From Oscillospiraceae bacterium (GTDB taxonomy: Bacteria; Bacillota; Clostridia; Oscillospirales; Oscillospiraceae): a stretch of DNA of 43,532 bases. The notes under the pieces were generated by a model. The model was given only the letters and a program-made list of their open reading frames with translations. It ran no database searches and was not told where the DNA came from. Of the stretch, positions 1,454 through 35,135 are shown piece after piece. The DNA lies in NCBI GenBank assembly GCA_017440925.1, contig JAFSAP010000039.1:1-43532 (forward strand), in the 5' to 3' direction. Made by a program: the position numbers and the translations under genes. The first letter of the stretch is position 1; each line of letters opens with the position of its first letter.

Positions 1454-3143
<1,690 letters not shown>

Positions 3144-3145
<2 letters not shown>

Positions 3146-3180
3146 GAAAAACGGCATAGCCGAAGCTATACCGTTTCTCT
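3144..3180 (+). terminator. hairpin at the recombinase stop
   Basis: A long imperfect stem (GAGAAA..CGGCATAGC, loop CGAA, GCTATACCG..TTTCTC) starts inside the recombinase stop codon. The T-tract is weak, so termination may be shared with the next hairpin. Confidence 0.55.
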
Positions 3181-3208
3181 CTTGCCCCACGATGTTTTCT
3201 TATCGGGA

Positions 3209-3235
3209 GGCACCTTAAGGGTGCCCTTGTTTTTT
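3209..3235 (+). terminator. rho-independent terminator on the + strand
   Basis: GGCACC, loop TTAAG, GGTGCC, then CTTGTTTTTT. It closes the + strand ICE transcription unit and abuts the tRNA fragment at 3235. Confidence 0.6.
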
Positions 3236-3278
3236 GGAGCAGGGTACGGGAATCGAACCCGCCTCCGAGGCTTGGGAA
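3235..3278 (-). pseudogene. 3' half of a tRNA-Gly(CCC) gene
   Basis: Read on the minus strand, the segment holds an anticodon loop (TTCCCAA), the 3' strand of an anticodon stem, a variable loop, a complete T arm, the acceptor 3' strand and CCA. No D arm or acceptor 5' strand precedes it. Positions 3235-3264 are identical over 30 bases to 6031-6060 of the intact tRNA-Gly(CCC). The fragment's anticodon-loop segment GGCTTGGGAA (3269-3278) recurs at 6210-6219 at the edge of a tRNA 5' half. It is best read as an attachment-site remnant. Confidence 0.75.
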
Positions 3279-3632
3279 ACTATGGGATATATATGCTATA
3301 TATGATGCGGTTTCAAAGAGCATATAGCTGGATTAATATTATACTTTTCCAACTATAAAAATTTGAGAATTATCAGAACGATGGTATTTTATATACATAT
3401 TGCATGACAATACCATGTCCGCACTGACGATTTTCTGAAGCGGTGGGACAATCAGGTGAAACAGGAGCAAAAGAACATACTGAAGAATTTGGTTTCATAA
3501 CCTGAAGATTGCCCCGGTGCCCGATTATAGTTCGGACATCGGGGCCTTTTGCGTTTTGTAAAAGAAATCTCCCAAATCCGTGAGGATCTGGGAGATTTTT
3601 GGAGTGGGATGCGGGTGCATCAATATGCAAGG
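3279..3632. other. non-coding gap with gene remnant and two terminators
   Basis: Frame 3408-3500 on the + strand reads as a short charged peptide ending KQEQKNILKNLVS with stop TAA and no start codon, probably the tail of a lost gene. A GC-rich hairpin at 3511-3545 is followed by CCTTTT. A second hairpin at 3565-3600 (AAATCTCCCA / TGGGAGATTT) is bidirectional and would terminate the GH79 gene on the minus strand. The start of the gap is AT-rich, with an ATATAT palindrome near 3287-3305. Nothing else is recognised. Confidence 0.4.
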
Positions 3633-5123
3633 TTATAGCACGATGAACGTACAACCGCCCGGTGCAACCTCCATTGTACCGGCGCAGACAGGTCTTCCGC
3701 TGAGCTCCGGCAGTTCGTCACTCTCTCCCAGAACCAGTTCGTTTCCGTTCAGCAGCATGGTGCGGGAACGGAGCTTGCCGTTGCCGGTGAGCGCGTAGAC
3801 CTCTGCGGCCTTGGGCAGTTCTACGGTGGTGACTTCCTCGGAGTTGTTGATGATAAGATAGACGCAGCCGTCCTTGCCATCCCTGCGGGAGTGGCAGAAC
3901 ACATGGGCTCCCTCCCGGATCTCTTCGCCGCAGTCATAGACGGTGGTGCCCATCAGCTGGTTCCACAGCTTGACGGCAAAGTAGTTGGGTCTGGGAACAA
4001 ATGTGCCGTGCTTCAGCCAGCCGTAGTCAGAGGATGCCAGCGTGTTGTGGAAGATCACACCGTCGGTGGCATAGGAGAAGCAGCCCAGCTCATTCAGAGT
4101 ACGGGGAACATCGGCATAGGTGGAAGCCCAGGTGTTGCCGCCGCAGCCTGCATCGCCAGCCTCGGTGACCCAGATCTGAGCACCGGGTGCATGCTTATCC
4201 CGCAGGGGACAGTAATACTCGGTGTGCTTGCTGACCTTGGCAAGATACTTTTCGGTGAGAATCTGGCTGAAATCCCAGTGGTTGTTGCCCATGGCGGCAC
4301 CGCGCTCGGAAACACCGTTGTAGTAGTGATAGCAGAATACATCGATGGGCTCGGTGGTATGCTCCATCATATCATCGGAGGAGACCATTTTGTACATTCC
4401 GCCGCCGGTGGCTTCGTCGGTGGGACCAATGGTGACTTCGCCTACGCAGCAGGGGCCCACGATCAGCACACCGGGATAGTTCTCCCGGATGAACTTGGTC
4501 ATGATATCGTGGTCACGGCCGAAATGCTCGGTGGTGTAGCCTGCGGGCAGGCCGGTGTAGGTCAGAATGTTAGGCTCGTTGGTGAATTCCACAGCCTCAA
4601 CGGGAACACCGTAGTCACGGCTGTAGTCCATGATCAGCTTTGCCTGAGCGGTGTCCCAAGGTTCGTGGGCATGGTGGTTGCCTTCACAGTTGGCAAAGGA
4701 GATCTGCAGCTTGCCGCCTACAGCCTTGACGAAGTCCAGCAGATTGTTCCACTGATGCTTTTTCAGTACGTTCTGGTAGCCCTCCGGAGCAGTACCGGCA
4801 GGATACTTGTCCTCAAAGTCATAGTAGGTCTTGTTGGCCCAGGTGCCGGATACACGGATCCATGCGGGACCGATGGCCTTGGCCAACTTCAGCAGGCGGG
4901 GATTTGTGGTGTCGATGGGATCATACCACTGATGCAGGTTGCCCATGTCCCGGGGATCCGGGGGGAGAAATTCCTCAATGCCGTCCACCTGGGCCTCGGT
5001 GTAGGCTTTCCAGAAGGTGCCGCCGGTAACCTCGGTCATCTCCACATTGTAGGATACCATCCGTTCATCAACGGTTCTGAGAACCTTGAGCTGTTCGGGG
5101 CTTAGTTTCACGATCTGTGCCAT
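3633..5123 (-). CDS. GH79-like (heparanase/beta-glucuronidase type) glycoside hydrolase, intracellular
   Basis: The 496-residue protein has the clan GH-A layout of heparanase-like enzymes: a WIRVSGTWANKTYYD strand near 89-101, acid/base FTNEPN (Glu183) and a nucleophile segment VTEAGDAGCGGN (Glu321). A beta-sandwich tail with INNSEEVTTVELP follows. There is no signal peptide, so it probably acts in the cytoplasm on imported oligosaccharides, cleaving glucuronides or related sugars. The substrate is not readable from sequence, and a GH39/GH30-like assignment is possible. ATG at 5123 follows AAAGGAG with 8-nt spacing; a 30-codon upstream extension lacks a ribosome site. It lies downstream of a tetR gene on the same strand and has its own promoter with a palindromic operator. 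Confidence 0.7.
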   Translation of the reverse strand: MAQIVKLSPEQLKVLRTVDERMVSYNVEMTEVTGGTFWKAYTEAQVDGIEEFLPPDPRDMGNLHQWYDPIDTTNPRLLKLAKAIGPAWIRVSGTWANKTYYDFEDKYPAGTAPEGYQNVLKKHQWNNLLDFVKAVGGKLQISFANCEGNHHAHEPWDTAQAKLIMDYSRDYGVPVEAVEFTNEPNILTYTGLPAGYTTEHFGRDHDIMTKFIRENYPGVLIVGPCCVGEVTIGPTDEATGGGMYKMVSSDDMMEHTTEPIDVFCYHYYNGVSERGAAMGNNHWDFSQILTEKYLAKVSKHTEYYCPLRDKHAPGAQIWVTEAGDAGCGGNTWASTYADVPRTLNELGCFSYATDGVIFHNTLASSDYGWLKHGTFVPRPNYFAVKLWNQLMGTTVYDCGEEIREGAHVFCHSRRDGKDGCVYLIINNSEEVTTVELPKAAEVYALTGNGKLRSRTMLLNGNELVLGESDELPELSGRPVCAGTMEVAPGGCTFIVL

Positions 5124-18930: not shown

Positions 18931-20976
18931 ATGAAACAGAAACCTTTTACCATCCGGCTTCTGTGCGCCGTGCTGGCTGTTTTGCTGCTGGCCGGCTGCG
19001 GCGCTCCCGCTGATCCCCCCACGGAAACCACCGAAGCTACAGAACCAGTCCCCACCACACCCCCCAATGGAAATCCGGAGGATGTGACCTGTCTGGGCAG
19101 CTACAGCGTCTCCGATACAGAAATTGCCAATGCCGCCGATACGGTTGTCGCCACCGCTGGCGATGCAAAACTGACCAACGGACAACTGCAGGTCTACTAC
19201 TGGCTGGAGGTCGCCGCCTACCGCCAGTCCAATGCTGCCATTGAACCGGACTACACCCAAAGCCTGGACACCCAGAGCTGCCCCATAGATGACAGCGTGG
19301 CCTCCTGGCAGCAGTATTTTCTGAAGCGGGCGCTGAACACCTGGCATATGCAGCAGGCGCTGGTGCTTCGTGCCGAGCTGGAAGGCGTTCCTACAGAAGC
19401 AGAATATAAGCCCGACCTGGAAAAACATGAGGCTTACATGACCGACAAGCCTGCCACAAAGTATCTGTATGGTCACAGCAAGAGCTACCAGCCCAACCGG
19501 CTCCACCAGGCCTGGCTGGATACCCTCCCCGAAACGCTGGATGCCCTGGCTGCAGACAACGGCTTTTCCAATGGGGCTGCCCAGGCGGAAGCCATTGCCG
19601 GTGCCGGCGCAGGCCCGGATGACCTGCTGCAGTATGCAAAGCTCAGCAATCTGGCATATATGTACTTTACAGAAATGGGCTATCACTTTGAACCCACCGC
19701 CGAAGAGGTGGAAGCTTTCTATACCGCAAACAAGGACAGCCTTCCAGCACAGGACGGCGAAAAGATTGTGAATATCCGTCACATTCTGCTGCTGCCCAAG
19801 GATGCCGAAATTGCTGAGGACGGGACCGTTACCTGCAGCGAGGAGGCCTGGAATGCCTGCCACACCAAAGCCCAGTCCGTTGTCAACAACTGGACACAAG
19901 CTGTGAAAAGGACCCGATTTGCCGAGCATGCCCTCTCCGATCCTGCAGAAGCCCGGTTCTCTGAGGCTGCTAAAAACAATTCTTCAGATGAAGGCTCCCG
20001 TGCCAACGGCGGCCTGTATGCCAATATCCACCAGGGTCAGCTGATCGCGCCTCTGGACAGCTGGTGCTTTGATCCTGCCCGCCAGCACGGCGATACGGAG
20101 ATCATCCGCAGCGACTGCGGCTACCACATCGTTTTCTTCTGTGATGCAGTTGAAAACTGGTACGCTGCTGCAGAAGCCGGACGGAAGCAACAGATGGGAC
20201 AGGAACTGGCAGAAGCCGCTATGAAGGCCTATCCTGCCAAGATCGATTACAGCGCGATCAAGTTGGGCCAGGCTGCCGATAACGGCTCCTTTGTCACATC
20301 CTCCGATCTGCTGTACCCCGATGTGGCCCACGAGCGTTTCCCGGATATGCCCCTGTACCTGCAGCAGGATTATCCCGATGCCCCTTATGGCAACTATAAG
20401 GTCAGCACCCACGGCTGCGGTATTACCACCCTGGCCATGGTAGCCAGCTATATGACTGATGACGAGCTGACACCCGCAGAACTGGGTGCCCGGTATGGTT
20501 ATTACTGCGGTGTTCGCGGCACGGAAATCTGCATTTTTGATGACACCCCTGCAGAAATGGGCTTCCATCTGCAGAACCGTTCCTACAGCTGGCGCGAAAT
20601 GGATGCAGCCCTGGATAACGGACAGGTAGTGATCTCCCTCCAGTGGGCTGGTTATTGGACCAGCGGCGGACACTATCTGGCTATGATCCGGCGCACAGAT
20701 GAGGGCAAATATGTTGTCCGGGATTCCAATCTGCTGAACTATAAGCGGATCAAAGCCCATGTGGAAGATGCCCATACCCGGGGCAGCATCAACGCCGCCG
20801 GACAGTATTACTGGATCTATGAACCCAAGGTCGTCCGCATTCCCGCCTGTGTCCGCTGCAGCGAGAATCTGACAGCCGGCGCGCCCGGTATCCTCTTCCA
20901 GGAGGATTACCACTGCGTCAAGTGTCTGGACGCCATGGCCCGCCGGGATACCTATCTGAATATGCTTGACCAGTAA
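18931..20976 (+). CDS. lipoprotein fusing a PpiC-type peptidyl-prolyl isomerase to a C39-like cysteine peptidase
   Basis: The 681-residue protein begins with a lipoprotein signal (LLAGCG, lipid Cys near 24). A SurA/PrsA-like helical region follows. A parvulin domain spans about 277-415 (VNIRHILLLPKD, ARFSEAAKNNSSDEGSRANGG, then IIRSDCGYHIVFF). A peptidase_C39_2-like domain spans about 465-635: Cys496 in THGCGITTLAM, His581 in SGGHYLAMI and Asp598 in VVRDSN form a plausible triad. A CxxC pair (VRC.. CVKC) near the C-terminus suggests a zinc ribbon. It would sit on the outer face of the membrane, folding and cleaving exported peptides or proteins. It may serve the surface proteins encoded upstream; that is inference. 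Confidence 0.82.
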   Translation: MKQKPFTIRLLCAVLAVLLLAGCGAPADPPTETTEATEPVPTTPPNGNPEDVTCLGSYSVSDTEIANAADTVVATAGDAKLTNGQLQVYYWLEVAAYRQSNAAIEPDYTQSLDTQSCPIDDSVASWQQYFLKRALNTWHMQQALVLRAELEGVPTEAEYKPDLEKHEAYMTDKPATKYLYGHSKSYQPNRLHQAWLDTLPETLDALAADNGFSNGAAQAEAIAGAGAGPDDLLQYAKLSNLAYMYFTEMGYHFEPTAEEVEAFYTANKDSLPAQDGEKIVNIRHILLLPKDAEIAEDGTVTCSEEAWNACHTKAQSVVNNWTQAVKRTRFAEHALSDPAEARFSEAAKNNSSDEGSRANGGLYANIHQGQLIAPLDSWCFDPARQHGDTEIIRSDCGYHIVFFCDAVENWYAAAEAGRKQQMGQELAEAAMKAYPAKIDYSAIKLGQAADNGSFVTSSDLLYPDVAHERFPDMPLYLQQDYPDAPYGNYKVSTHGCGITTLAMVASYMTDDELTPAELGARYGYYCGVRGTEICIFDDTPAEMGFHLQNRSYSWREMDAALDNGQVVISLQWAGYWTSGGHYLAMIRRTDEGKYVVRDSNLLNYKRIKAHVEDAHTRGSINAAGQYYWIYEPKVVRIPACVRCSENLTAGAPGILFQEDYHCVKCLDAMARRDTYLNMLDQ

Positions 20977-21018: not shown

Positions 21019-21059
21019 CTTATCACAGAAGCGGAAAAATACGAAGTTGCCATGTAGAA

Positions 21060-24000
21060 TCAGGAGAACAGGGCCGTCCAGGGTTCTCCGTTAATACGCA
21101 CATTGGGATCCATAAAATTCTCATATTTCGTAACATTAGAAGTATCAAAACCAGATACATCCAACGCGCCCACATTTTCACAGGCATAGAACATATAGCT
21201 TAGGTTCGTAGCTTTGCTAGTATTGAATCCAGACACGTCCAGATCTGTCAGTGCTTTGCATTTATCAAACATGGACTGCATATTGGTAACACTGGAAGTA
21301 TCAAATCCGGATACATTCAGTGTTTTCAATTTTCCACAGCCATGGAACATGTAACCCATATTCGTAACATTGGGGGTATTGAAACCAGACACATCCAGCT
21401 CAGTCAGTGCAGCACAATCATAAAACATGCAGTACATATCGGTAACATTGGAAGTATCAAATCCGGATACATTCAGTGTTTTCAACTTTCCACAGCTCAT
21501 GAACATATATTTCATTGAGGTCACATTCTTTGTGACGAAATTGCTGACATCCAGTTTTTTCAGGCTATAGCAATTTTTGAACATTTGGGACATATCCGTA
21601 ACACAGGAAGTATCGAAGCTGCTGACATCCAAATCAACCAGTTCATAGCAGGACAGGAACATATCTGCCATATCCTTAACTTTACCAGTATTCCAGTTTG
21701 TGAGCTGCAGGGACTGGATCTTTGTGTTTTCTGCAAACATGTGTTTCATGTTGGTAACCTCCCGGGTATCAAAACCTGAGAGATCCAGAGCCAGCAGACT
21801 GTTGCACTCGCAGAACATATGCTCCATATCCATTACTTTGACCGTATCGAAACTGGAAACGTCCAACTGGGAAAGACTGCTGCAATGCTGGAACATGCAC
21901 TTCATGGTGGTTACATTATGGGTATCAAAGCCGGAAATATTCAACTCCTTCAAGTTGGTACAGTCATTAAACATAAAAGACATGTCCTTTACATTACAGG
22001 TGTTGAAATCGCTCAGATCCAGGGATGTCAGACTGCTACAATTACTAAACATGCCGCTCATATCTTCACAGTTGGCTGTGTTGAAATGCGACACATCCAG
22101 TTCCTTGAGACTGTAGCATTTTGAGAACATGTTCTCCATATTGGTTGCTTTTGCTGTATTGAACCCGGAAATATCCAGAGCAACCAATCCTTCACACCTC
22201 TGGAACATGGCAGCGAAGTCCGTTACCCTCCCGGTAACAAATGCAGACAGATCCAGGGAACTCAGAGACTTGCACTCATTAAACATGAGCCTCATGACGG
22301 TAACATTGGCAGTATTGAATCCGGATACATCCAGCGCAGTCAGCTTCTCACAGCCAGTGAACATTTCCTCCATTGTCGTAACATTATGTGTTTGGAAGTC
22401 GGAGACATCCAAAGCCGTCAACGCTGTACAGTTTTTGAACATAAAAGACATATCCGTAACCTTTGCGGTATCAAAGTTGGATATATCCAGCACCGTCAGC
22501 GCTTTGCAACCAGAAAACATAGATTTCATATCGGTGACATTGGCGGTATCAAAACCGGATATATCCAGCTCAGTCAGCTTCTCACAGCCGTAGAACATAT
22601 GGTTCATCTCAACAACTTTTCGGGTATCGAAGTTGGACACATCCAGAGCCGTCAGTGCTTTACATTTGTCAAACATCGACTGAATATCAATGACATTCGC
22701 AGTATTGAACCCAGAAACATCCAGGGCATCCAATTTCTCACAGTTGAAGAACAGATAGCTCATATCTGTAACCTTCGCAGTATCAAAGTTGGATACATCC
22801 AGAGCAGTCAGCGATTTGCAACCAGAAAACATGGAGCGCATACTGGTGGCATTCGCCGTATCAAAACCGGATACATCCAGAGCTGCCACCTTTTCACAGC
22901 CGTAGAACAGATAATTCATATCCGTAACCTTTTGGGTGTTGAAGCCGGAAACATCCAGAGCCGTCAGCGATTTGCAGTTATAAAACATGGAACGCATACT
23001 GGTGATATTATCTGTGCAGAAAGACGTTCCAAAATCAATGGCCGTCAGATTGGGAAGGTATGCGAATAGATGTCCGGAATTTGCCGGAGCACAGACACCG
23101 CCTTCAGCCGCAACATACACATGATACAGGTCTACAGATTCAACGGTGGTAGGCTCTGTGGCATCATCGGACGGATCTCCAACGACAATATTAGCCGTTT
23201 CCGCAAATTCTGCCCAGGCTTTTACCTTTCCGTTTCCCAGAGCAGAGGCATCCACTGCCGTATCCGGTGCCTGACTCAGCGTATCCAGGAAGGTAATGGT
23301 CTTGACCCGCCGGCGGGTGATATTGGTATTGAAAATGACATCTTCCACTTCCAGCGCTTCGCTGATATTGCCTTCTGTATCTCTGCTGGGCTGATTTTCC
23401 ATCAGTGTATTTTCCGTAATATCCACTTCCACAGCAGGGGCAGAACCGACCTCATCCAGGGAGCTTTCAGTTTGTTCCGACACCGTGTCCTTCTGGATTT
23501 TCTCTTCACCCGTCTGACCCTTGCCAAAACCCACCGCGATCAATATGATTATCAATGCCGCCACAATGCCTGCAAGGATCGGGATCAGCCGTTTTTCCTT
23601 TAAAACAGACAGATTCCCGGCAGTCTTATCTGTGGATTTGTCATCTGTTTTGAGTTCATCGTCTGTTTTGGGTTCTTCATCGGTTTTGACCTTGTCATCT
23701 GTTTTGGGTTCTTCATCGATTTTGACTTTGTCATCTGGCTCGATAACATCCTTATCTATAATTCCGCAAACCGTTCTGTGCAGGACTTGGATATTATGCT
23801 CAATCGGCGGTGTGATGGCATCCAGCCAATGGACTCCGTTCAGATAGTATGCCAGCGCCGGCTCCATTTCCACATCCTCAACCCGGAGCGGGAGAATGGG
23901 GATTTCCGCCTTGAAAGCAGCCGTAATTTCGTTCATAACATCTCTGGAATGATTGGACGCATTGGTATAGATCAAGATAAGGCATTTTGTCTGCCCGATG

Positions 24001-24149
24001 GCTGACATGATCTCCGTCCGGTAATCTTTGCCGGGACGCACATCTCTCGGCGCATACCAGCAGCGCAGGTTCCTTGCCTCAAAATAATGGCAAATTGCAT
24101 CTGCAATCTGCTTATTTGCAGAAGAGTAGCTGATAAAAATATCGTGCAT
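21060..24149 (-). CDS. TIR domain - transmembrane - DUF285 (BspA-like) repeat protein
   Basis: The 1029-residue protein opens with a TIR domain (1-132: DIFISYSSANK, WYAPRDVRPGKDY, LILIYT, and NEITAAF with putative catalytic Glu74). An acidic linker with repeated DDKVKTDEEPK units follows, then LKEKR and one membrane helix (about 188-209). The outer part has a spacer to about 385 and then roughly 24 tandem 26-residue DUF285 repeats of pattern MxxMFxxCxxLxxLDVSxFDTxxVTD, ending near 1008. Basic residues before the helix place TIR inside and repeats outside. There is no signal peptide. ATG at 24149 is better spaced from AAGAGG than ATG 24155. BspA-like repeats often mediate adhesion or sensing. 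TIR domains may act as NAD-degrading or signalling enzymes. The combined role is inferred. Confidence 0.9.
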   Translation of the reverse strand: MHDIFISYSSANKQIADAICHYFEARNLRCWYAPRDVRPGKDYRTEIMSAIGQTKCLILIYTNASNHSRDVMNEITAAFKAEIPILPLRVEDVEMEPALAYYLNGVHWLDAITPPIEHNIQVLHRTVCGIIDKDVIEPDDKVKIDEEPKTDDKVKTDEEPKTDDELKTDDKSTDKTAGNLSVLKEKRLIPILAGIVAALIIILIAVGFGKGQTGEEKIQKDTVSEQTESSLDEVGSAPAVEVDITENTLMENQPSRDTEGNISEALEVEDVIFNTNITRRRVKTITFLDTLSQAPDTAVDASALGNGKVKAWAEFAETANIVVGDPSDDATEPTTVESVDLYHVYVAAEGGVCAPANSGHLFAYLPNLTAIDFGTSFCTDNITSMRSMFYNCKSLTALDVSGFNTQKVTDMNYLFYGCEKVAALDVSGFDTANATSMRSMFSGCKSLTALDVSNFDTAKVTDMSYLFFNCEKLDALDVSGFNTANVIDIQSMFDKCKALTALDVSNFDTRKVVEMNHMFYGCEKLTELDISGFDTANVTDMKSMFSGCKALTVLDISNFDTAKVTDMSFMFKNCTALTALDVSDFQTHNVTTMEEMFTGCEKLTALDVSGFNTANVTVMRLMFNECKSLSSLDLSAFVTGRVTDFAAMFQRCEGLVALDISGFNTAKATNMENMFSKCYSLKELDVSHFNTANCEDMSGMFSNCSSLTSLDLSDFNTCNVKDMSFMFNDCTNLKELNISGFDTHNVTTMKCMFQHCSSLSQLDVSSFDTVKVMDMEHMFCECNSLLALDLSGFDTREVTNMKHMFAENTKIQSLQLTNWNTGKVKDMADMFLSCYELVDLDVSSFDTSCVTDMSQMFKNCYSLKKLDVSNFVTKNVTSMKYMFMSCGKLKTLNVSGFDTSNVTDMYCMFYDCAALTELDVSGFNTPNVTNMGYMFHGCGKLKTLNVSGFDTSSVTNMQSMFDKCKALTDLDVSGFNTSKATNLSYMFYACENVGALDVSGFDTSNVTKYENFMDPNVRINGEPWTALFS

Positions 24150-24161
24150 ACGCATTACCTC

Positions 24162-24221
24162 TTTCTATCTGTTTGCTGCTATAGATAGAAATATTATATA
24201 ACTATTTACATTCCATTTCAA
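24162..24221 (-). promoter_or_regulatory. promoter and leader inverted repeat of the TIR gene
   Basis: On the minus strand, TTGAAA (24221-24216), 17 bp, TATAAT (24198-24193). A perfect 9-bp inverted repeat TTTCTATCT/AGATAGAAA at 24162-24191 follows the -10 and partly overlaps the Shine-Dalgarno. It may be an operator or a translation-limiting hairpin. Confidence 0.65.
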
Positions 24222-24242
24222 GTCGGCAGATATGTTTTTTGC

Positions 24243-24295
24243 AAAAATACACCTGCAAATGGCAGAAATCCAGCCAATTTGCAGGTGCATTTTTA
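24243..24295 (-). terminator. original terminator of spo0A
   Basis: CACCTGCAAAT (24250-24260) pairs with ATTTGCAGGTG (24277-24287), flanked by A- and T-rich tracts. It lies downstream of the stranded spo0A 3' end and upstream of the TIR gene. Confidence 0.7.
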
Positions 24296-24331
24296 TTCAA
24301 ATTTGTATTTTTTGTGTTATGGGACAAATAA

Positions 24332-24583
24332 TCAAAAATTCGCCACTTCGCCAGCCTTGCATCGACGCTGCAATTTGTCAACGATCAGGGCGATAAACTC
24401 CGAATTCGTGGGTTTTCCCTTGGTATTGCTGACCGTGTAGCCGAAAAATCTCTGCAGCGTATCCAGGTCACCTCTGTCCCATGCAACCTCGATGGCGTGG
24501 CGGATGGCACGCTCCACTCTGGAAGGGGTGGTCTGGAATGTTTTCGCCACCTGGGGGTACAATACTTTTGTGATGGCATTCAC
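24332..24583 (-). pseudogene. stranded 3' end of spo0A (DNA-binding domain fragment)
   Basis: This 84-codon fragment matches residues about 178-259 of the intact Spo0A at 35222, from [15 protein letters not shown] to the shared terminal VANF and stop. The two protein segments differ in only a few residues near the C-terminus, while the DNA differs at many third positions. Homology stops abruptly at GATGGCATT (24572-24580). It is the host's original gene end, cut off by insertion of the element to its right. A GTG at 24583 could start translation but has no ribosome site. Confidence 0.88.
24525..24565. repeat. left attachment-site core (41-bp direct repeat)
   Basis: Begins GGGGTGGTCTGGAATG and ends GGGGGTACAATAC. 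It is identical to 35415-35455, 10,890 bp away, and lies within the spo0A coding sequence on both sides. Confidence 0.85.
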
Positions 24584-25208: not shown

Positions 25209-25598
25209 ATGTATATCAACGAAAAGAAGATGGCTATTGAGATGACTAAGAAGTTTGCTTCCGCTGCCCGCAAGTTCGGTACTCAGGAGTACAGAAACCT
25301 TCAGGAAGCCCGCCGGGATTATCCCAACTTTAAGGTAGTCACCATCACCCGCAAGGCTCCTGCAAAGGATACCTTCAAGGGTCTGAACTATCCCTTTATG
25401 GAGAGCTACATCGAGAAGCACGATGATGCAAACCAGACCATTATGAAGGAGTATCTGAACCTCCGTGGTCTGTCTGAGGATGCCAAGGACAATCTGGTAG
25501 AGCCTTACGACTACGGCAAGATGAAGAAGTGGTTCCTGAAGAAGTACCCTTCCATCGCCAATTTCCACAAGCAGTGCGACGATCTTGTTGCCGCTTGA
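25209..25598 (+). CDS. element protein of unknown function, paralog of the next gene
   Basis: The 129-residue basic protein starts with ATG after GGAGG (25196-25200). No known domain is recognised. It aligns over most of its length with the protein of the next gene. Both have EM near the N-terminus, KDT(F/Y)KGL(N/T)YP(F/Y)ME in the middle with a following YI and H, and a C-terminal KKWFLxxYPxxAxF. The many Lys and aromatic residues suggest nucleic-acid binding, but this is only inference. It is the first gene of the element's left + strand module. Confidence 0.7.
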   Translation: MYINEKKMAIEMTKKFASAARKFGTQEYRNLQEARRDYPNFKVVTITRKAPAKDTFKGLNYPFMESYIEKHDDANQTIMKEYLNLRGLSEDAKDNLVEPYDYGKMKKWFLKKYPSIANFHKQCDDLVAA

Positions 25599-25642
25599 TC
25601 CGTATTTCATTGACTGGCAACATTGTTTTGGAGGACATAAAG

Positions 25643-26125
25643 ATGATGAACGCTAAGAGTAGAATGAGAGTTTTTTATGCAGAGGGTGTGATTGAAATGA
25701 ACACTACCTTTGCCAAGATGATGCAGAACCCTCTGTCCGACGAATACGCCCTGCTCCAGAAGATCCGCATGGAGAACCCTACATTCTCTGTGCGCCGCCG
25801 TCAGATCAAGAGCAACCCCAAGAAGGACACCTACAAGGGTCTGACCTATCCCTACATGGAGTATTATATCAGCACCCACGAGCCAGAGGATAAGGTGGAT
25901 GCGGTTCTGGCACATTTTGAAGAGCTGAAGCTGATTTCCCAGTGTCATGGCAAGCGGCTGCGTTACCCCACTATCAAGAAGTGGTTTCTGGCTAGATACC
26001 CTGAGGTTGCCAAGTTTGGCATGGAGCTTGTTGCAGACGAAGCCCCCACTGCTGCTCAGGAGCCGATTCCTTTTGCTCCCAATGCTGCCACGCCTGAAGC
26101 TGCTGAACTGAAGGAGAGCGCTTGA
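25643..26125 (+). CDS. element protein of unknown function, paralog of the 25209 gene
   Basis: The 160-residue protein shares KKDTYKGLTYPYMEYYI and IKKWFLARYPEVAKFG with its upstream neighbour, plus about 25 extra C-terminal residues rich in Ala, Pro and Glu. ATG at 25643 is chosen from GGAGG at 25630-25634 with 8-nt spacing; a later Met at 25697 lacks a ribosome site. Its stop overlaps the start of a 32-codon frame. A tandem duplication within a small element implies two divided or heteromeric roles. Confidence 0.7.
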   Translation: MMNAKSRMRVFYAEGVIEMNTTFAKMMQNPLSDEYALLQKIRMENPTFSVRRRQIKSNPKKDTYKGLTYPYMEYYISTHEPEDKVDAVLAHFEELKLISQCHGKRLRYPTIKKWFLARYPEVAKFGMELVADEAPTAAQEPIPFAPNAATPEAAELKESA

Positions 26126-29640: not shown

Positions 29641-29910
29641 ATGCGGATATTAGAAAAATTCTGGAAGGGAGAAGTGGCACCGGGCGAACGGTGCCATATC
29701 TCCAAAGGGGAGTATTCCAAGAGCTATGCAGCAATGGTAGACAGTGAAGAATATTTGCAGAAGAATTTGACCGGGGAGGACTTGCAGCAGTTTCAGCAAT
29801 TCCGGGACGCTGAACTGAACATGAGCCGCCTGTCAGACTTCGATAACTTTGCAGAGGGCTTCCGGCTGGGTGCGCTGCTGATTCTGGATATATGGGAGGG
29901 GACAGCATGA
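29641..29910 (+). CDS. DUF6809-like small protein
   Basis: The 89-residue acidic protein has ILEKFWKGEVAPGE, EEYLQKNLTGEDLQQFQQF and a C-terminal FAEGFRLGALLILDI, the pattern of a small family common in clostridial elements. AAAGGGGGAAA precedes the ATG. Its stop overlaps the serine recombinase start by ATGA, so the two are coupled. Function unknown. Confidence 0.65.
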   Translation: MRILEKFWKGEVAPGERCHISKGEYSKSYAAMVDSEEYLQKNLTGEDLQQFQQFRDAELNMSRLSDFDNFAEGFRLGALLILDIWEGTA

Positions 29911-30494
29911 ACCGGGGATACAGCCGCTGCTCCACCAATGAGGGCAAACAGGACATAAACCGCCAAGTCCGGGAGCTGAAGGAAGCTGGTGCCGATGTGG
30001 TCTATATGGAGTATGAACACGGGGATGCCAAGGTGAAGAGCCAGCAGCAAGCCATGTTCGCAGAAGCAGAACCGGGAGATACCATCATCGTTCTGGAAGT
30101 CTCCCGGCTTGCCAGAAGCACACAGCAGCTATGTGAGATTATCGAACGAATCCGGGAAAAGCGGCTGCGGCTGGTGATCGTGGGCAGCATTACCCTTGAT
30201 TGCCGGGACGGACAGGCTGATCCCATGAGTGAAGCATTCTTGCAGATGGCGGGTGTGTTCAGCCAATTGGAGCTTGCCATGATCCGTGCAAGGGTAAAAT
30301 CCGGGATGGCAAATGCCGCCGCCAAGGGAGCTAAAATCGGCAGACCGCAAGTAACCGCCGACAATCTCCCGGCAACCTTCCTGCGGCACTACCCGGCGTA
30401 TAAGAAAGGGCAGTTGAATGTGTCGGAACTGGCAAGGGTCTGTGATCTCAGCCGGACTACGGTTTATAAGTACATTGATCTTTTGGAAACATAA
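29907..30494 (+). CDS. small serine recombinase (resolvase/invertase family)
   Basis: The 195-residue protein has the resolvase catalytic domain: YSRCSTNEGKQDINRQ with catalytic Ser near 9, then LEVSRLARS, FLQMAGVFSQLELAMIRARVKSGM and the hinge KIGRP. A C-terminal HTH (VSELARVCDLSRTTVYKYI) follows. Cys replaces the usual Val in the YxRVS motif. In this element it could resolve multimers, invert DNA or control a copy-number step. The tyrosine integrase at 34065 is the likely integration enzyme. Confidence 0.88.
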   Translation: MNRGYSRCSTNEGKQDINRQVRELKEAGADVVYMEYEHGDAKVKSQQQAMFAEAEPGDTIIVLEVSRLARSTQQLCEIIERIREKRLRLVIVGSITLDCRDGQADPMSEAFLQMAGVFSQLELAMIRARVKSGMANAAAKGAKIGRPQVTADNLPATFLRHYPAYKKGQLNVSELARVCDLSRTTVYKYIDLLET

Positions 30495-34064: not shown

Positions 34065-35051
34065 TCAAAAGTTGTTCATTGGGCTGGCTCTGTGGTACTG
34101 CTTGCTGATGTCATCGTCCGTCAGATCCAAATACGCCTGTTCTGTGACCTCTACACTGGAATGTCCGAGGATCTTGCTGAGGGTGAAAATGTCCATGCCG
34201 TTCATAAGGCACCTTTTGGCAAAATTGTTTCTCAGGCAGTGGGGCGTGTATGCTTCGTTCAATCCAGCCCGCAGGATGTATTTCTTGAAATTGCTTTCAA
34301 AGTTACCCACGCCGATGGAGCCGCCGTGTTCTTTGACAGGGAAGAGGTAGTCGCTCTCCACATACCTGTCCTTAAATTGCAGCCACCGCCGAAGCACAAT
34401 TTCTGTCTTAGGGGAGAAGTATACTGTCCGATCCTTTCTGCCTTTAGTTTCTTCGGCTCTGAGGTTGATTCTCTTTCTGCCCAGTTCCAGATCCGTCACA
34501 AGAACCGTGGAGCATTCGCCCAGGCGCATACCACTGTCGAGCATGAGCATGACCATTACATAATCCCGATGCTCTGTGAAATAGGACTTATCGAATTTGG
34601 ACAGCAGCTTCTTCAGATCTTCGTCTGAGAGGAAGACTTTCGCCTGTCGGTTATACTTTAGCTGCCGAATGCGCTTCATGGGATTCTTACGGATAATATA
34701 CTCCCGTTCCATCCAATTGAAGAACACACGGATATTGCGAATGTAATTGTTGATGGTGGTAACGCTGACAGGCTTGCGGTAGTCCCTTCTTCGGTCTGGA
34801 CAGTTCTTGCTTTTGGAAAGATCGTTGACATAAAAGGTGTACTTTCCACGCACCATAAGATCGTCAATGTACTTGCGGATGACGTTCTCTGTAATTTTAT
34901 CCACAGTGTAAATTTTCAGTTCATCCGACAGCCAACGACCGAAAAGATGGAGGGTTTGTTCGTAGCTACTCATGGTTTTTTCTCTCAATTGGGTGCTACG
35001 GCAATAAAGCATAAATTCATCGGTAAGCCACTCAAAATCCAAATTTTTCAT
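34065..35051 (-). CDS. int: tyrosine recombinase (integrase of the spo0A element)
   Basis: The 328-residue protein has a core-binding domain (FEWLTDEFMLYCRSTQLREKTMSSY) and a catalytic domain with MLDSGMRLGE (Arg), PHCLRNNFAKRCL (His-x-x-Arg), LGHSSVEVTEQAYLDL (His, and nucleophile Tyr307). ATG at 35051 follows AGGAG with 10-nt spacing; ATG 35072 is an alternative start. It is adjacent to the right attachment core in spo0A, as integrases usually are, and repeated TTCATTGG sites surround it. It probably cuts within the shared spo0A core. Confidence 0.92.
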   Translation of the reverse strand: MKNLDFEWLTDEFMLYCRSTQLREKTMSSYEQTLHLFGRWLSDELKIYTVDKITENVIRKYIDDLMVRGKYTFYVNDLSKSKNCPDRRRDYRKPVSVTTINNYIRNIRVFFNWMEREYIIRKNPMKRIRQLKYNRQAKVFLSDEDLKKLLSKFDKSYFTEHRDYVMVMLMLDSGMRLGECSTVLVTDLELGRKRINLRAEETKGRKDRTVYFSPKTEIVLRRWLQFKDRYVESDYLFPVKEHGGSIGVGNFESNFKKYILRAGLNEAYTPHCLRNNFAKRCLMNGMDIFTLSKILGHSSVEVTEQAYLDLTDDDISKQYHRASPMNNF

Positions 35052-35065
35052 GCAAAAAATACTCC

Positions 35066-35135
35066 TGTTCATTGGGGTAAAATCCACCCAATAAATCAGG
35101 AGTATTCATTGGTACAACGAAAAAAGTTCATCGGT
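35066..35135. repeat. cluster of TTCATTGG sites (integrase arm-site candidates)
   Basis: TGTTCATTGGGG (35066-35077), ATTCATTGGT (about 35105-35114) and GTTCATCGGT (about 35126-35135), with another GTTCATTGGG inside the integrase end near 34074. The first is repeated, inverted, at the left element end (24738-24749). Confidence 0.5.

Follow-up and report, generated by a model that had tools for sequence, protein, structure and literature searches.

Can a single bacterial gene encode a membrane receptor built much like the animal Toll-like receptors (TLRs)? The question is raised by a gene on the minus strand of a 43,532 nt stretch of DNA (hereafter the window) from an Oscillospiraceae bacterium (GCA_017440925.1, contig JAFSAP010000039.1), which encodes an N-terminal TIR domain, an acidic linker, one hydrophobic helix and a long array of DUF285 repeats (Table 1). 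We regard its product as a candidate TIR membrane receptor of a recurring modular plan, and favour, with a probability of about 0.5, the reading that it is a single-pass receptor whose outer DUF285 solenoid binds a ligand and whose clustered inner TIR domains turn NAD+ into an ADP-ribose-type messenger.

The domain calls stand far above chance, as the family E-values indicate: Pfam places TIR_2 at residues 6-114 (E = 3.4e-20) and DUF285 (PF03382) at E = 9e-266 (865 bits), and the NCBIfam PARCEL repeat TIGR02167 matches 24 stretches of the protein. The second ATG (M3) of the open reading frame (ORF), at 24149 and 8 nt past a GAGG, is a likelier translation start than the first, since its spacing from the GAGG is better; residues are numbered in the long ORF, in which the putative catalytic glutamate is E76 (E74 from M3). 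An earlier description made from the letters without database searches (the sequence-only reading) had named the TIR domain with this glutamate, the acidic repeat linker, one membrane helix and about 24 tandem 26-residue DUF285 repeats with a cysteine in each, without stating the strand, and all of these features were recovered. A motif script found exactly 24 repeat starts, from residue 400 to 998, each step being exactly 26 residues and free of indels, and the cysteine occupies repeat position 10 in 23 of the 24 (register 385-1008). Positions 7, 16 and 23 are invariant and positions 4, 5, 8, 9, 11 and 12 rank among those that vary most, a pattern that we read as fitting a solenoid with a fixed core and a variable face. 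The array is not freshly amplified, as its repeats share a mean DNA identity of 59% (best pair 83%) and a higher period of two repeats (156 bp); the linker DNA is repetitive too, with 18/36-bp units at 23641-23737. Residues 190-208 (19 residues, mean hydropathy 3.17) form the sole segment above the hydropathy threshold.

To see whether this layout recurs, 84,980 species genomes were scanned with a five-row, TIR-only alignment; at least 593 stretches matched, 544 of which encode a relative, and the counts below refer to the best 80 of the 544 among the matches listed. A hydrophobic helix follows the TIR domain within 150 aa at 70 of the 80 loci. For this subfamily, the remark of the sequence-only reading that most bacterial TIR domains are soluble does not hold. 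Two archaeal proteins (L132 and L161) have the helix before a C-terminal TIR domain: each begins with a hydrophobic, signal-like segment (residues 14-32 and 9-27, respectively), followed by the outer part (TPR in L161), the helix and the TIR domain. The remaining eight have no helix at the threshold (L115, L130, L135, L140, L146, L153, L155 and L160); of these, L153 is truncated where its contig ends, L130 is an ORF of 164 aa, and L115, L135 and L155 carry hydrophobic segments at a greater distance. The genome of the window (68% complete) itself holds seven TIR_2 genes, with helices in L001 (= L034) by script and in L004 and L005 by reading. Judged from these sequences, the TIR-helix layout is conserved and recurs. 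Among 73 proteins (the window protein included), the flank of the helix that faces the TIR domain has more lysine and arginine than the other in 49, as many in 17 and fewer in 7, and the signal-like start of the archaeal pair suggests that the TIR domain stays inside in either order. A single-pass topology with the TIR domain inside and the repeats outside, as proposed beforehand, is thereby supported through the charge rule and the order reversal.

The outer part varies. TIR-helix-DUF285 proteins, which the sequence-only reading had suggested seeking in other Clostridia, were found in two Lachnospiraceae (L089 and L104). Pfam searches of chosen relatives identified DUF285 in these two, a C-type lectin domain (L090), BspA-type LRR_5 (L144), WD40 (L107), TPR (L161), PPC (L110), FGE-sulfatase (L155), Sel1/TPR (L082, L097), DUF6273 (L139, L142), DUF5050 (L142), a ConA-like GH43_C2 domain (L117) and LRR_4 (L064/L197, L056 and L053, the last from the genome of the window); no Pfam family was found for the outer parts of L132, L095 and L052. 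BLAST placed 46 outer parts in one cluster, two checked members of which are Sel1/TPR. L104, with DUF285, and L123, placed by its outer part in the Sel1/TPR-like cluster, have TIR domains that are 83% identical, so the outer part was exchanged. The window gene combines the TIR subfamily, a helix within 150 aa and an exchangeable outer domain, and we consider its topology and modularity well supported by these comparisons.

Proteins with PARCEL/DUF285 repeats usually carry a signal peptide or are exported as lipoproteins. The window protein shares with such BspA-like surface proteins the TIGR02167 repeats and a similar N-cap, which resembles by eye those of L089, L104 and the second DUF285 protein of its own genome. 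That second protein begins, by reading, with a signal-like segment, which suggests that the DUF285 repeat is exported in this organism; in the window protein the TIR domain and internal helix stand in its place, and a hydropathy scan found no N-terminal hydrophobic segment and hence no sign of signal-peptide or lipoprotein export. One could see an adhesin with a TIR tail, in which the repeats fix the cell to surfaces of a host or of microbes while the TIR domain is a passenger or acts on host TLR signalling, and the available part of PMC2996958 does describe PARCEL/DUF285 and BspA-type repeats as surface modules. We think this improbable: by reading, the protein has neither a sorting nor a lipoprotein signal, an inner TIR domain would need release to reach the host, and the TIR core residues are invariant in 80/80 relatives under many different outer domains.

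These invariant residues are E76, N68, S70, W33, R37, G42, H109, W110 and D112, and E76 is the putative catalytic glutamate, a feature of NADase-type TIR domains. Compared with solved structures, the TIR profile best matched metazoan TIR-STING, Toll-receptor-related 2, Cat1 and TLR6, and E76 aligns with the glutamate of TIR-STING, Cat1 and TLR6. Cleavage of NAD+ by the window TIR domain is plausible, and an NAD-derived signal is indirectly supported by this glutamate and by the genes beside some relatives. Using a RyR profile built from three neighbour proteins of these loci and run on ORFs of at least 70 aa, we found a RyR-domain gene abutting the TIR ORF at seven of the 80 loci, on the same strand in L142, L110, L115, L117, L128 and L136 (gaps of 7 to 108 bp between stop-to-stop ORF ends) and convergent in L147, whilst in L124 a RyR gene lies 1.9 kb off. 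Pfam reads these neighbours as RyR with AAA (L142, L110) or AAA_16 (L115), TrkA_N with RyR (L117, L136, L147), RelA_SpoT-TPR-LSDAT-RyR (L128) and Ion_trans_2 with RyR (L124). The L128 fusion (positions 2492-4981, LSDAT being of the SLOG type) lies directly upstream of a TIR-helix gene with an outer part that reads as propeller-like. Two further genomes (G266 and G331) hold same-strand runs in which a multi-helix RyR protein and a RyR-only protein precede a TIR-helix-LRR protein (the LRR by Pfam in G266 and by reading in G331), in which the C-terminal RyR match of the multi-helix protein is weak (26.9 and 25.5 bits, respectively).

RyR domains also share genomes with these TIR genes more widely. 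Among genomes chosen from the TIR loci, the adjacent cases included, RyR was found at E ≤ 0.001 in 20 of 26 (18 above the cut-off) against 0 of 14 controls. In a class sample of 391 genomes (TIR and RyR counts taken as the same genomes, as their labels agree), TIR occurred in 20, RyR in 27 and both in 10 against 1.4 expected (Fisher 5e-8), of which four (G180, G260, G284, G379) carry other TIR types; for TIR proteins with a helix and an outer domain, RyR was present in 6 of 12 genomes against 0.8 expected (4e-5), the genomes in these statistics not being independent (G193, G221 and G500 are congeneric). The genomes of L089, L104, L090 and L144 each encode an Ion_trans_2 protein that has a TVGYGD filter and matches RyR at its C-terminus, below the Pfam cut-off in three of the four; in the two DUF285-bearing genomes (L089 and L104) this match scores 22 and 27.5 bits against a cut-off of 27.4. 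These proteins (L191, L192, L193 and L194) look like two-helix K+ channels. A GGDEF/EAL-type neighbour cluster was also seen at 12 loci, on the same strand and 34 bp to 2 kb from the TIR gene; only its member in L102 was family-searched.

The favoured reading may be spelled out as a sequence of steps: the DUF285 repeats would build an outer solenoid and bind a ligand on a surface or in the environment, this would cluster the protein, the clustered inner TIR domains would convert NAD+ to a nucleotide messenger related to ADP-ribose or to cyclic ADP-ribose, and in relatives candidate RyR-domain proteins, some of them channel-like, would read it.

Several findings weigh against this receptor reading, the first of them at the membrane. 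All five seed TIR domains came from helix-bearing proteins, which biases the 80 loci, and in the 391-genome sample (E ≤ 1e-10) a helix with an outer domain was present in 12 of the 23 proteins listed, the remainder looking by reading like STAND, macro or other fusions. A single clade of DUF285 bearers is neither shown nor rejected (approximately unbiased test, p-AU 0.41), the TIR tree having low resolution, with 35 of its 76 internal branches left open. L142 (TIR-helix-DUF6273-DUF5050 by Pfam) adjoins a twin without a helix (L049) whose C-terminal repeats look alike by eye, so that not every relative depends on the membrane. This twin, together with a topology read from hydropathy and charge, is what speaks for the TIR domain and repeats lying on the same side, with a hydrophobic segment that does not span the membrane; we judge that very improbable in view of the hydropathy of the 19-residue segment, the like segments after the TIR domain in most relatives and the signal-like start where the order is reversed.

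The second group concerns the chemistry. In NADase-type TIR domains a tryptophan four residues before the glutamate has a role, and it is present in the aligned TIR-STING, Cat1 and TLR6 chains. Here it occurs in 0/80 relatives (Gln in 68, His in 5, Ala in 3, Asp in 2, Tyr and Pro in 1 each; Asp in the window protein), and the glutamate by itself is no proof of activity, according to the part of PMC7075850 that was available. No RyR gene abuts the TIR gene at 73/80 loci, so that an adjacent RyR gene does not define the TIR-helix-ectodomain class. The window's own genome gave a single RyR match at E ≤ 0.001, to a 111-aa RyR-only protein on contig C28, where none of the seven TIR genes lies; this protein is 40% and 37% identical to the RyR-only proteins of G266 and G331, and its gene is followed (L176, 7043-12439) by ORFs that, by reading, resemble an RNA ligase and a hydrolase of the HD type. 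Family searches of the window proteins recognised no effector beside the gene, and no RyR or known defence partner adjoining it. The same facts can be told as a receptor of identical topology that is not an enzyme, in which the clustered TIR domain only recruits proteins, as in animal TLRs, and E76 and the HWLDA motif are structural; besides the missing tryptophan and the loci without a RyR neighbour, the glutamate is also present in TLR6 and, in the accessible text of PMC7075850, is frequent in a TLR subgroup. We nevertheless think this rather unlikely, as the RyR neighbours and co-occurrence point toward a soluble nucleotide and no adaptor-like partner was recognised in the 14 largest neighbour clusters drawn from a set of 544 ORFs, few of which were family-searched. 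The interpretation of the sequence-only reading is thus partly supported: the layout and its recurrence stand, and signalling through NAD metabolism retains the glutamate and the RyR neighbours of some relatives, whilst the absent tryptophan and the lack of a recognised partner here count against it.

Turning to the locus, in the sister genome G086 (L180) a C39/PPIase-like gene and a Spo0A_C-like ORF (~65% and 93% identical to those of the window) are separated by ~100 bp that hold no TIR gene, and in G070 the same interval is filled by 3.7 kb of other content. The gene also has a lower G+C than the window (0.45 vs. 0.51), and it is thus accessory. A TIR-domain search of 149 genomes (own included) gave a match at E ≤ 0.001 in 13, none of the others above 49% identity; no repeated DUF285 motifs lay near the 27 other TIR matches (~1.5 kb each side), and among L021-L048 and L059-L081 (same flanks) more than one DUF285 motif was present only in L021, the window gene itself. 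Such patchiness, the low G+C and weak PADLOC matches to SAVED-TIR and ThsB would suit a one-gene anti-phage sensor, in which the outer solenoid or an envelope disturbance at infection triggers abortive NAD loss. This is unlikely in our view, since no known defence gene was recognised among the nine other window proteins scanned (LmuB-, DruC-, WYL- and Cas3-like matches occur in the window, none taken as a system), viral contigs hold six relatives (one strong), phage records two (36% and 30% identity) and plasmid sequences none, and lectin, ConA-like and LRR outer domains equally fit surface or sugar sensing.

Table 1. Features of the TIR-DUF285 gene, its locus and a RyR-containing run in relatives (window positions unless a locus is named).
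Feature	Position	Strand	Basis
Whole gene, 1031 aa	21060..24155	-	ORF; likely start 24149 (M3)
TIR domain (TIR_2), predicted cytoplasmic	23814..24140	-	Pfam, residues 6-114
Putative catalytic Glu codon (E76; E74 from M3)	23928..23930	-	Glu in 80/80 relatives
Acidic repetitive linker	23616..23741	-	Sequence repeats
Putative single transmembrane helix, residues 190-208	23532..23588	-	Hydropathy
DUF285 domain N-cap, residues about 284-384	23004..23306	-	Reading of sequences
24 DUF285/PARCEL repeats of 26 residues (385-1008), predicted outside	21132..23003	-	Pfam, NCBIfam, motif script
Promoter-like site TTGAAA-17-TATAAT before gene	24193..24221	-	11/12 consensus
Terminator-like hairpin between upstream Spo0A_C-like ORF and TIR gene	24252..24266	-	Sequence scan
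Stretch absent at same site of sister genome G086 (L180)	21020..24330 approx.	.	Locus comparison
Three-gene run: RyR, RyR-only, TIR-helix-LRR	L197 653-5879 (G266); L198 1-4658 (G331)		

Carriage by a mobile element was considered; the plasmid, phage and viral matches are few, and recombinase genes elsewhere in the window (1463-3145, 29892-30494 and 34065-35087; two resolvase-type recombinases and a phage-type integrase) still leave room for it. The rare TIR-helix proteins on viral-labelled contigs include L163 (phage record MT836910.1) and L185 (IMG/VR), whose outer parts read like DUF6273 and a propeller. An operon with the upstream Spo0A_C-like ORF is unlikely, as L180 has that ORF but no TIR gene and as the two are separated in the window by promoter- and terminator-like sites, neither type exceeding shuffled sequence across the region (10 vs. 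9.4 and 4 vs. 3.3). The ORF itself (24332-24583, minus strand, 83 aa) comprises only the C-terminal DNA-binding part of Spo0A, shares 89 to 93% identity with its counterparts in the sister loci L180, L181 and L183, and is possibly a stand-alone regulator. In those three loci the gene that comes next (18931-20976 in the window) shows 47 to 66% identity, and short related ORFs with no Pfam family occur at 25209-26125 and in L180 (6359-8304), with more copies in the sister genome.

By prediction, the window protein shares with animal TLRs a single helix, a cytoplasmic TIR domain and an outer repeat solenoid, and the LRR_4 relatives (L064/L197, L056 and L053) come closer still. TLRs differ in having an N-terminal LRR ectodomain with a signal peptide and a C-terminal TIR domain, whereas the window protein has its TIR domain first, no signal peptide, DUF285 in place of LRR, a TIR domain of the TIR_2 family and no known adaptors; the TLR order is seen among the 80 only in archaeal L132 and L161, with other outer domains. 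Thoeris ThsB and Cat1 have a TIR domain and its glutamate in common with the window protein, and TIR proteins of this type act as soluble parts of multi-gene systems. The window protein differs from them in lacking the tryptophan, ThsB and ThcB4 profile matches are weak (ThsB_TIR at 19 bits, below its cut-off of 21.2), and no ThsA-like match was found among the nine other window proteins scanned; a STALD search was silent in the genome, as it was in 14 of 14 controls.

In the part of PMC13232231 at hand, phage RyR-domain proteins (RyDEP) cleave or sequester 2'/3'cADPR, and it is this activity that gives meaning to RyR neighbours of TIR genes. RyDEP is phage counter-defence, whereas the neighbours described here are TrkA_N, Ion_trans_2, AAA or RelA/SLOG fusions of cellular genomes with putative functions. 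Excerpts of other papers describe TIR domains fused to LRR, Ig, ankyrin or STING, with examples from animals and oomycetes, and list TIR with a helix among short proteins (PMC9153377); they also describe diverse architectures of bacterial TIR groups (PMC7075850), an amoeba TIR protein with an added N-terminal helix (PMC13142454) and bacterial conflict proteins of other kinds, the ends of which vary and are sometimes extracellular (PMC8195603). The layout of the window protein appears in none of the available parts of these five papers. Titles and abstract starts of the open PMC literature likewise yielded no bacterial TIR-helix-DUF285 or TIR-helix-LRR receptor, most subscription literature lying outside that search. 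The RyR link may have been partly foreseen by Burroughs et al. in 2015, whose treatment of nucleotide-centred systems reportedly covers TIR, SLOG and RyR domains.

More tentatively, bacteria and archaea may possess a modular class of Toll-like membrane receptors that join a conserved cytoplasmic TIR domain and helix to exchangeable outer sensors (DUF285, LRR, C-type lectin, Sel1, propellers and others), of which the window gene would be a DUF285 member, with a cyclic ADP-ribose-like messenger read by RyR proteins, TVGYGD channels among them. To our knowledge, bacterial TIR immunity operates within the cell; a receptor at the cell surface with an inner TIR domain, if real, would let bacteria convert an outside cue into an NAD-based signal, and prokaryotes would then have a near counterpart of the Toll-like receptors. 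If RyR proteins are indeed its readers, TIR chemistry, cyclic ADP-ribose and RyR domains would be joined in one pathway in single-celled organisms.

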